Assembly (NCBI RefSeq): GCF_900188375.1
Contig: NZ_FZOO01000002.1
Span: forward strand, 248,001 to 312,000
Direction of reading: 5' to 3'
Length of the DNA: 64,000 bases
DNA from: Geodermatophilus pulveris
GTDB taxonomy: Bacteria > Actinomycetota > Actinomycetes > Mycobacteriales > Geodermatophilaceae
The notes under the pieces are model-generated. The model was not told where the DNA came from, searched no databases, and saw only the letters and a list, made by a program, of their open reading frames with translations. The position numbers and the translations under genes are program-made. Below, one piece after another: positions 32,479 to 35,620 of the stretch. The stretch's first letter is position 1. Each line of letters begins with the position of its first letter.

Positions 32479-33672
32479 TCAGGCCGCCCCGGTCACGGGG
32501 GCGTCCCAGTCGACGTGGTGCGCGCGCACCCAGGACTGCGGGTCGCGGCCGCGGGCGACGGCGCGGCGCAGCAGCACCGGCATCACCAGGTCGCGGACCA
32601 CCCGGCCGACCGGCGGGGGCGACTTGGCGCTGCTCACCCCGAAGCCCTGGGCGACGACCCGCTCGACCCGCTCCCGGCGCAGCCCCTCGAACACCGTGAA
32701 GGCCTGCGGCACCGGCAGGTCGCGCAGGCAGCGGGCGAGGACGACGGCGTCCTCGATGGCCAGCGAGGAGCCCTGCCCGGAGGCCGGGGAGGTGGCGTGC
32801 ACCGCGTCCCCGATGAGCACCGTGTGCCCGCGGTGCCACCGCGCCACGCGGGGCACGTCGTGGGTCGCCCAGCCGCGCAGCGGGGCGCGGGTGGCCTCGA
32901 CCAGGGCCAGCGCCGGGGACCGGTCGTCGCGGTAGAGCTCGTGCAGCCGGCGGCGCCACTCGGCGTCCGACGTCCCGGCGACCTCGGCCTGCGCCGGCTC
33001 CCGCGACACCGGCGGGTTGGCGAACCACCAGGTGTCGCCGGACGGCATGCGCAGGTAGCCGAAGAAGGCCCGCCGGCCGAAGACCATGGTCAGCCGGCCG
33101 ACCTCGGCGCCGGGCGGCACGTGCTCGGAGACCCCGGCGGTGTTGAGCACCGGGACGAACCGGGGCGGCGGGGCGCCCGGGTCGACCAGCGTGCGGAGGG
33201 CGGAGCGCACGCCGTCGGCGCCGATGAGCACGTCGGCGGAGTCGGTGCTGCCGTCGGCGAACACGGCGGTCACGCCGTCGCCGGTGTCGTGCGCGTCGAC
33301 CAGCCGGGCGCCGTAGCGGATGTCGACGCCGCGGCGGAGGGCCTCCTCGTGCAGCGCCCGGTACAGGTCGGCGCGCCGCAGGGACACGCCCGCCGCGCCC
33401 CCCGTGCCCGTCGGCACCTCACCGAGCACCCGGCCGGTCCCGCTGCGGAACTCGATCACCGGTGTCGGGAAGCCCACGTCGAGGACGGCCTGCTCGGCGT
33501 CGATCGCCCGCAGCGCGTCCAGTCCGTTGACCTGCACGCCGAGCCACGCGCCGACGTCGTCGGCCGCGGCCGGCCGCATCTCGTGCACGGTCGCCTCGAT
33601 CCCCGCCCGCTGCAGGGCCATGGCCGCCACGGGTCCGGCGACCCCGCCGCCGATGACGAGCGCGCGCGTCAT
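32479..33672 (-). CDS. FAD-dependent monooxygenase (PHBH/UbiH type)
   Basis: A 397-residue class A flavoprotein hydroxylase. It has the dinucleotide motif ALVIGGGVAGPVAAMALQRAG at the N-terminus, the second FAD/NADPH motif DVLIGADGVRSALR and the third HTVLIGDAVHATSP. This set defines aromatic or antibiotic hydroxylases using NAD(P)H and O2. ATG 33672 overlaps the stop of the UGSC gene (ATGA), and GAGGAGG lies upstream, inside that gene. Its translation is therefore probably coupled to read-through of the UAG in the UGSC gene. Substrate unknown; a role in a selenium or thiol redox pathway is inference from position. Confidence 0.9.
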   Translation of the reverse strand: MTRALVIGGGVAGPVAAMALQRAGIEATVHEMRPAAADDVGAWLGVQVNGLDALRAIDAEQAVLDVGFPTPVIEFRSGTGRVLGEVPTGTGGAAGVSLRRADLYRALHEEALRRGVDIRYGARLVDAHDTGDGVTAVFADGSTDSADVLIGADGVRSALRTLVDPGAPPPRFVPVLNTAGVSEHVPPGAEVGRLTMVFGRRAFFGYLRMPSGDTWWFANPPVSREPAQAEVAGTSDAEWRRRLHELYRDDRSPALALVEATRAPLRGWATHDVPRVARWHRGHTVLIGDAVHATSPASGQGSSLAIEDAVVLARCLRDLPVPQAFTVFEGLRRERVERVVAQGFGVSSAKSPPPVGRVVRDLVMPVLLRRAVARGRDPQSWVRAHHVDWDAPVTGAA

Positions 33673-34229
33673 CCCCCCGACCTCCTCGTCCGGTCGTCCC
33701 CCGCCGCACCGGGCGGCGCGGCGGTCACTGCGGCCACCACCGCGGGGTGCACCCGCTCGGCGACCTCCCGCAGCTCCGCGTCCGTGCGGTCCTGCACCGG
33801 GTGCGGCACCAGCACGTGCGGGGCCGGGAACCCCAGGGCAGCGCCCTGGGCGCGGGCGGCCTCGGCGAACACCTCGCTGGCGAGGAAGACCCCCACCACG
33901 CCGCGGCGTTCCAGGTCGGCGATGTCGTGCACACTGCACGACGTGCAGGAGCCCTAGTCGGCCAGCGCCTCGACGACTACCTCGCACTGCTCGGTGATCC
34001 GCTGTCGCAGGTCCAGCGGGGCGACCCGGGCGAAGGTCGGCTTGCGGTAGCGGCGCACGGTCGCGCCGTCCGCGGCGAGCAGCTCGGCCAGCCGGTCGAG
34101 GACGACGTCGCCGCGGGCCTTGCCGATGTCGAGCAGCCCCACCGTGCGCCCGCGCAGCGACGCCGGCCGGGGCAGCGGCGCGCGCTCCGCCGGCCGCCGC
34201 TCGCCGGTGGGGTCGAGGACCGTCGTCAC
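33669..34229 (-). CDS. UGSC-family selenoprotein with UAG-encoded selenocysteine
   Basis: A 186-residue product if the TAG at 33954-33956 is read as selenocysteine. The first 91 residues (GRTVGLLDIGKARGDVVLDR ... ITEQCEVVVEALAD) run straight into TAG and then GSCTSCSVHDIADLERRG, VVGVFLASEVF and VPHPVQDRTDAEL. This is the UGSC family, in which U-G-S-C is the redox motif and some bacteria have C-G-S-C; here TAG stands precisely at U92. Cys95 and Cys98 follow. A perfect hairpin at SECIS distance is present. GTG 34229 overlaps the stop of the thioredoxin-fusion gene (GTGA) and the end overlaps the FAD gene (ATGA). If TAG simply stopped translation, a 91-residue fragment lacking the active site would result. 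Confidence 0.85.
33924..33942 (-). promoter_or_regulatory. Candidate bacterial SECIS hairpin
   Basis: On the coding strand GTCGTGCA and TGCACGAC form a perfect 8-bp stem with the loop GUG. The loop begins 20 bases after the UAG, close to the 19-base spacing of the E. coli fdhF element, and it also displays G-U at the loop, which SelB recognises there. The identity of the loop requirement in this organism is not known. Confidence 0.65.
33954..33956 (-). other. Recoded UAG codon (selenocysteine) in the UGSC gene
   Basis: In-frame TAG at codon 92, at the U position of U-G-S-C. Coding continues for 94 further residues with family-specific motifs. UAG rather than UGA is the notable point. Confidence 0.8.
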
Positions 34230-35620
34230 ACCCGCACCTCCCGCGTCACCGGGGCGCTGCCGGTCTCACCGGCGACCCACCCGCCGACGATCGCACTGAA
34301 CAGCCCGGCGTCGCCACCGGCGTGCGCCACCAGCAGGCCGCCGGGCCGGAACTTGGGCACGTCACCGTCGCCGGCCCCGGGCGGCAGGCCCTCGGCCATC
34401 CCCCCGGCCCCCCGCACCAGCTCGCCGGCCGGCAGCCGCAGCAGCCCGTCCAGCTCGGCCAGCAGCCGGGTGCGGTCCCAGCCGGCCTCCCGCAGCACCC
34501 GGCCGTGCTCCGGGGAGACGACCAGCATCGCGTCGAAGGCCAGCGGCAGCTTGGGGTGGGCGTTCACCCGCAGGCAGGCGGCGAACGTCCGGGCCAGGGA
34601 CTCCGCGTCCCGGCTGAGCTGGTCGACCACCGGCTGCACCCCGGCCCCGGCGAAGACGGTGACCGCGTCGCCGGGCACCCCGCGGTCGGCGGCCAGCGGC
34701 GCGAACGGGCTACCCTCCTCGCGCTCGGCGAAGCAGAAGGTGAGCTTGCCCGGGTTGCCCAGGGTGGCCCGGTCCACCTCGCCGGGGCGGCCGCCGCCGA
34801 CGTTGCGCACCACCAGTTGCAGCGCCCGGCCGATGGTGGCGTTCGCCCGGTTGCCCTGACCCAGGGCGTTGACGCCGCTGTTCATGCCGACCCGGGCGGC
34901 CACCGGGCCGTTGACGACGACGACGGGTCCGGAGAAGTAGGTGGTGGCCAGCAGCCCGTGCAGCGCGAACTCCTCGGCGCACGCCGCCTCCACCGCCGCG
35001 AGGACGACCGGCAGGTGCTCGGGCCGGCAGCCGGCCATGACCGCGTTGACCGCGACCTTCTCCACCGTGCACGGCACCAGGTCCGGCGGGACGACGGCGA
35101 CCACCTCGCCGGGGTCGCAGGTGGTGCCGCGCAGCATCCGCACCACCCGTTCCGGGGTCGGGGGGACGACGGGCAGCCCGTCGGTCCAGCCGCGGTCGAA
35201 CAGCGCCTCGTGCTCGTCCTCCAGGTCGGCCAGCTGCACCCGCCGGCTGGCCAGCCGGCCGCCGTGGCGGGCCTCCAGCGCGTCGGCGCGGGACGGGTCC
35301 ACCGACAGCGACCCGCAGCCGGGCCGGTGGTCGGGCAGGCCCTCGCCCAGTCCGGGGACGCCGGTCAGCTCGGCCCACTGCTCCCGGCTCCAGCCGACCG
35401 TGCGCGCGGTCTCCCGGCCGCCGTCCACCCGGAGCAGCGTCGGCACCGTCTCCACGCCCAGCCGGTGGGACAGCTCCAGGGAGGTGTCGTCGCCGTCGAA
35501 CCAGTCGGGGTCGTCCTGGCACCACACCGCGGCGCCGAGCTCCCGCAGCACCGGCTCGACCAGCAGGCAGGTGGGGCAGTCCCGCTTGACGACGGCGACC
35601 AGCCCGTCCGGCAGCTGCAC
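34226..35620 (-). CDS. Thioredoxin-like domain fused to a UGSC-associated domain
   Basis: A 464-residue protein. Residues 1-90 are a thioredoxin fold with Cys15-Pro-Thr-Cys18 (VVKRDCPTCLLVEPVL) and the cis-Pro stretch GVETVPTLLRVDGG. From about residue 110 it has ALFDRGWTDGLPVVPPTPERVVR, split here as ALFDRGWTDGLPVVPP and TPERVVRML, then VNAVMAGCRPEHLPVVLAAV and GMNSGVNALGQGNRAN. This large domain occurs, as far as I recall, together with UGSC proteins. GTG 35620 is leaderless: a TAGGGT box lies 7 bases upstream. Its end overlaps the UGSC start (GTGA). It likely supplies electrons to the selenocysteine protein; catalytic chemistry is unknown. Confidence 0.75.
   Translation of the reverse strand: MQLPDGLVAVVKRDCPTCLLVEPVLRELGAAVWCQDDPDWFDGDDTSLELSHRLGVETVPTLLRVDGGRETARTVGWSREQWAELTGVPGLGEGLPDHRPGCGSLSVDPSRADALEARHGGRLASRRVQLADLEDEHEALFDRGWTDGLPVVPPTPERVVRMLRGTTCDPGEVVAVVPPDLVPCTVEKVAVNAVMAGCRPEHLPVVLAAVEAACAEEFALHGLLATTYFSGPVVVVNGPVAARVGMNSGVNALGQGNRANATIGRALQLVVRNVGGGRPGEVDRATLGNPGKLTFCFAEREEGSPFAPLAADRGVPGDAVTVFAGAGVQPVVDQLSRDAESLARTFAACLRVNAHPKLPLAFDAMLVVSPEHGRVLREAGWDRTRLLAELDGLLRLPAGELVRGAGGMAEGLPPGAGDGDVPKFRPGGLLVAHAGGDAGLFSAIVGGWVAGETGSAPVTREVRV

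Follow-up and report, generated by a model that had tools for sequence, protein, structure and literature searches.

Selenocysteine (Sec) is nearly always encoded by UGA. For Geodermatophilus and Blastococcus, 75Se evidence for UAG read as Sec reportedly exists, and UAG-Sec decoding in the Geodermatophilaceae is said to have been described by Mukai et al. in 2016. Excerpts of PMC5330540 (Santesmases et al. 2017), which cites Mukai et al. 2016, report three Geodermatophilaceae genomes with a CUA tRNA-Sec together with formate dehydrogenase (FDH) and UGSC selenoproteins, and excerpts of PMC10778597, citing the same work, state that some species encode Sec by UAG, UAA or ten sense codons. Judged by these excerpts, UAG-Sec is already published for this family, and the gene described here adds a further genome and a further gene. 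The published evidence for Geodermatophilus and Blastococcus mentioned in an earlier note on this DNA fits what the excerpt of PMC5330540 says of its three genomes.

The UGSC gene and its in-frame UAG codon

The window, that is the whole 64,000-nucleotide stretch of Geodermatophilus pulveris DNA that was analysed, carries on its minus strand a UGSC family (seleno)protein gene (33669..34229) of 187 codons including the stop. Its frame runs from GTG 34229 to a TAG at 33956-33954 (codon 92) and on through 94 sense codons to the TGA at 33671-33669. The TAG is directly followed by GGC TCC TGC (G-S-C), and both the frame and the alignment of homologues place it as the U of the UGSC motif; the earlier note had given this same frame and this same position, and both can be read off the sequence. 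When the TAG is read through, the protein scores 147.6 bits against PF24696 (Pfam, cut-off 25) and 137.6 bits against NF041046 (NCBIfam, cut-off 125), and it is placed in the UGSC family by passing the profile cut-off and by the U/C-G-S-C motif at the conserved site. We consider it very probable that the gene makes a 186-residue UGSC selenoprotein, in which Sec is the predicted reading of the UAG at codon 92, by means of a CUA tRNA-Sec that SelB would deliver at a hairpin. This was the main claim of the earlier note, and the CUA tRNA-Sec, the sel genes, two more TAG-Sec genes and the tracking of codon and anticodon in the family all argue for it.

The ends of the UGSC gene overlap its neighbours by a few bases, the GTG start with the upstream stop and the TGA stop with the downstream ATG, so that the three genes probably belong to one operon. 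The upstream gene (34226..35572, minus strand, start uncertain) has a CPTC motif in an N-terminus that weakly resembles thioredoxin (PF13098, 21.1 bits, short of the cut-off of 27); its C-terminal part is unclassified. The downstream gene (32479..33672, minus strand) is of the FAD-dependent monooxygenase type (PF01494, 105.8 bits).

A search for homologues of the window protein found 213 sequences, of which 120 were listed and 24 of the listed were aligned. As the earlier note had proposed, the alignment was used to look at the residue opposite the TAG: it is a cysteine in 15 of the 19 homologues that span the site, with W, R, S and Q in one each, and the other five aligned sequences stop just short of it. 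W, R or Q occupies the Sec site in P0123, P0125 and P0126, three homologues of the window protein; the W or Q could be a product of gene calling with another code table.

Under the standard code the frame ends at codon 92, and a nonsense mutation or a sequencing error would leave a pseudogene or two separate ORFs. Such an account would be in line with a query coverage of only 47-49% in 100 of the 120 listed homologues, including the five aligned ones that end just before the site. We hold it to be very unlikely, since the frame is intact beyond the TAG, a matching CUA tRNA is present, two further TAG-Sec genes are found in the same genome and the TAG recurs in the family. Among 112 Geodermatophilaceae genomes, 54 yielded 95 UGSC matches, 72 with one in-frame TAG and 23 with no stop, and no TGA or TAA was seen within any of the 95; this one-TAG pattern exceeds chance. 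Furthermore, in each of the 34 distinct sequences that were gathered by this motif, it is the UGSC site that holds the TAG. If the TAG is a Sec codon, as we prefer to read it, the half-length coverage of so many listed homologues means that such genes come out shortened in annotation.

The AlphaFold model of the window protein (mean pLDDT 91.0) consists of alternating strands and helices, and its fold matches are generic. Residue 92 lies between a strand (84-90) and a helix (93-108). The junction from strand to helix is the usual place of a reactive cysteine or Sec. A Sec at residue 92, which the model puts at the start of the helix, may act as a redox or nucleophilic centre.

Selenocysteine machinery and the SECIS-like hairpin

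The genome from which the window was taken (G000; 4.38 Mb, 26 contigs, 99.99% complete) was searched for the genes that the earlier note expected. selD (TIGR00476, 380.8 bits), selA (TIGR00474, 413.8 bits) and selB (TIGR00475, 287.8 bits, plus the winged-helix domain PF09107) are all present beside a tRNA-Sec gene with anticodon CUA, which sits between selD and selA. This tRNA scores 64.2 bits against RF01852 (cut-off 47) and is the best of eight RF01852 matches; matches 2 to 6 are tRNA-Ser, -Tyr, -Ser, -Ser and -Leu according to ARAGORN. A tRNA-Sec pattern admitting both UCA and CUA gave a single match, with anticodon CUA. The earlier note had named a tRNA-Sec with UCA alone among the findings that would contradict it; no UCA tRNA-Sec was seen in the genome, either by this pattern or among the six typed RF01852 matches.

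Three Sec sites were found in this genome and all are TAG: the one in the window, that of a second UGSC gene (C6:14619-15116, L019), and that of formate dehydrogenase-N (FDH-N; NQARI-TAG-HSATVPG), whose Sec site lies before the stretch C18:80607-82622 (L308). Hence what is found in this genome is a CUA tRNA-Sec, selA, selB and selD, UAG at the Sec sites of known selenoproteins and a SECIS-type hairpin, and not the UGA codon and UCA tRNA-Sec of the canonical system. ARAGORN labels the CUA tRNA as tRNA-Pyl, which would make UAG a pyrrolysine codon; we take this label to follow from the anticodon CUA. Such a reading is hardly credible, given that Rfam assigns the tRNA to tRNA-Sec over its cut-off, that the gene is located between selD and selA, that cysteine prevails at the site in homologues and that the Sec site of FDH-N uses the same UAG codon.

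Downstream of the TAG on the minus strand, a SECIS-like hairpin (33924..33942) is formed by a stem (33942-33936 / 33930-33924) around the loop AGUGU (33935-33931), which begins 18 nt past the TAG. The hairpin had been described in the earlier note as a perfect one of 8 bp: it does exist at these positions, with 7 bp round AGUGU, and reaches 8 only if an A-U pair closes. The loop of the E. coli fdhF hairpin, GGUCU, stands at the identical 18-nt offset. We collected distinct sequences by motif from 52 UGSC loci (of the 95 matches of the family) and 30 FDH-N loci; three UGSC loci without a stop (L116-L118) were not placeable by motif and stand outside the count. An RGUNU loop at exactly 18 nt is present in 34 of 34 distinct UAG-UGSC and 24 of 24 distinct UAG-FDH-N sequences, with a stem of at least 6 bp in 32 and 24 of them, respectively, counts that are weakened by the mutual relatedness of the sequences. 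Neither the loop nor such a stem was seen at that offset in the 13 Cys-UGSC sequences (11 initially and 2 found later). Two-sided changes of stem pairs occur at pairs 1-3 in UGSC and at pairs 4 and 7 in FDH, and non-pairs are seen in two UGSC sequences and one FDH sequence.

The serine codon of the loop, AGU, accounts for 7 of 585 serine codons in the crude ORF set of the window. In 20,000 trials of synonymous recoding per gene, a stem with an RGUNU loop arose in 0.14% for the window gene, 0.07% for the second UGSC gene and 0.36% for the genome's own FDH-N, and a stem at least as long, whatever its loop, in 3.2%, 1.6% and 8.4%, respectively. The folding energy of the window hairpin is ordinary compared with dinucleotide shuffles (z -0.75, 47 of 200 as good) and with synonymous shuffles (z +0.32). 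The case for this putative SECIS element is carried by position and loop, not by energy.

We propose that the CUA tRNA-Sec would be charged with serine, which SelA and SelD would then convert, and that SelB would bind the hairpin, with its loop 18 nt after the codon, deliver the tRNA-Sec and outcompete release factor 1 at the UAG of codon 92. As UAG still terminates other genes (3 of the 35 crude gene calls end with it), it is the hairpin that would tell Sec from stop.

Anticodon and Sec codon across the Geodermatophilaceae

In the 112 genomes of the family, a CUA tRNA-Sec was found in 101, one of which (G019) also has a UCA tRNA-Sec; seven have UCA only (G066, G068, G069, G070, G072, G073 and G074, from genera g5, g6 and g7) and none was found in the remaining four. 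In the part compared, most differences between the UCA and the CUA tRNAs fall in the anticodon and its closing pair. FDH-N was matched in 100 genomes; 30 loci were fetched from them, and 29 of these have a Sec site occupied by TAG. The FDH-N locus of G079 (L301) lacks about 95 nt round the Sec codon and the hairpin, and is frameshifted, owing to either a deletion or an assembly error.

In genus g7 a different FDH is found; the match extends over its Sec site in three genomes (G071, G073 and G074), and each of them has TGA there. The UCA tRNA is present in G073 and G074, and no tRNA-Sec was found in G071. In the UCA genomes no UGSC gene with TGA was found, the three matches there being all stop-free, so that the tracking of codon and anticodon in these genomes rests on FDH in one genus. 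As far as can be judged from sequence, the Sec codon tracks the tRNA-Sec anticodon across the family, and the genera with a UCA tRNA-Sec, with TGA in the FDH of g7, are likely to represent the state before a codon swap.

This tracking bears on another explanation, in which the amber codon is read through by a near-cognate or suppressor tRNA that inserts an ordinary amino acid, the truncated form being the main product. The scatter of W, R, S and Q at the site, each in one homologue, would suit it, as would the rarity of UAG as a stop in the crude gene calls. We nevertheless judge it highly improbable, because cysteine is the residue in most site-spanning homologues, the genome has the selenium genes and the hairpin, and codon and tRNA-Sec anticodon go together in the family; decoding of UAG as Sec is the reading that we retain.

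A SelA tree was made of 28 rows (20 CUA, 4 family UCA from g6 and g7, and 4 outgroup, all UCA) with a midpoint root; g5 is absent from it, its contigs giving no SelA match. The 20 CUA rows form a single clade (100/100), with all UCA and outgroup rows outside; closest to this clade are either the family UCA rows or the Nonomuraea row, which the tree does not separate. The SelA of the source genome clusters with Trujillonella, g11, two named Geodermatophilus and two genomes of g1, one of them G019, at a fork that stays open (85/89). When the sel locus of this genome was compared by BLAST with 11 named loci, those of Geodermatophilus matched best. Since the outgroups carry UCA, the direction would be from UGA to UAG, and most likely the lineage swapped its Sec codon once, via a change in the tRNA anticodon. 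It seems that a stop codon other than UGA can take over the meaning Sec, and that this happened, apparently once, in the Geodermatophilaceae.

Some observations were made outside the family. A contig of 4845 bases (L324, G230:C194), from a genome that belongs to a different family of the order, carries a CUA tRNA-Sec, selD and a partial selA; the SelA of that genome falls inside the CUA clade, which indicates contamination or transfer. The conjugative plasmid pYA7-1a of Arthrobacter sp. YA7-1 (L351) carries selD, a UCA tRNA-Sec, selA and selB, adjoined by molybdoenzyme subunit genes and a Tn3-family transposase, and this region is possibly a mobile selenocysteine cassette. On plasmid pSym of Cupriavidus necator UYPR2.512, a tRNA with anticodon CUA (L215:6615-6702) fits the general tRNA model, not that of tRNA-Sec, and is possibly an amber-reading tRNA.

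Genome G019 and comparison with known systems

G019, the genome with both tRNA-Sec genes, belongs to the same genus as the source genome and is listed as 100% complete with 1% contamination. UAG is its resident Sec code, and its CUA tRNA-Sec lies inside the sel locus. The UCA tRNA-Sec (81.8 bits, with an encoded CCA end) is at 1173-1263 of a 69-kb contig (C17; L108:1-6000). In its vicinity are an ORF resembling a transposase and an AhpD-like gene (1579-2157; TIGR01926, 112.6 vs 81.8 bits), and a TGA at C-F-Y-U breaks the frame of the latter. In bins of 1 kb, the GC content of this contig is 0.59-0.65 over 1-6 kb, 0.74 in the first kilobase, which holds the transposase, and about 0.69-0.79 over the rest. 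In the column of the TGA, the 11 homologues aligned of 225 found have six Cys and five Trp; the Trp could be TGA read with another table, or a real Trp. The AhpD-like gene is followed by a hairpin with loop AGUUU, which starts 16 nt past the TGA, not 18. A single SelB passes the cut-off in G019.

The presence of both tRNAs and of a UGA-interrupted AhpD-like gene makes two Sec codons possible in this genome. Thus, we put forward a tentative reading in which the Geodermatophilaceae would have switched once from UGA to UAG by the anticodon, and G019 would later have gained a mobile UGA-Sec cassette (the UCA tRNA-Sec and the UGA-interrupted AhpD-like gene, on an island of low GC that also has transposase genes), two stop codons then being read as Sec with a single SelB. 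Because the UCA contig is possibly a contamination or an assembly chimera, we rate this reading at slightly less than an even chance. With relatives that keep the usual UGA state and one or more genomes that may combine the two, this natural codon swap can be dated and tested. Among the open-licence papers searched, none was found that deals with the family's UCA genera or with a genome that has two Sec codons; the newer parts of the present work are the family-wide picture, the UCA genera and the possible two-codon genome.

Compared with the canonical UGA-Sec system of E. coli fdhF, the system described here shares SelA, SelB, SelD, tRNA-Sec and a like loop 18 nt after the codon, and it differs by the codon UAG and the anticodon CUA, so that the competitor would be RF1 and not RF2. 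With the UGSC family as defined by NF041046 and PF24696, the window gene shares the motif and an over-cut-off match, but it has UAG where a UGA or a Cys codon would stand. Finally, the CUA tRNA-Sec, the UAG at the UGSC and FDH Sec sites and the family itself are common to this system and the published UAG-Sec of the Geodermatophilaceae, whereas the mapping over 112 genomes, the genera with a UCA tRNA-Sec and the one genome with both tRNAs set the present picture apart.
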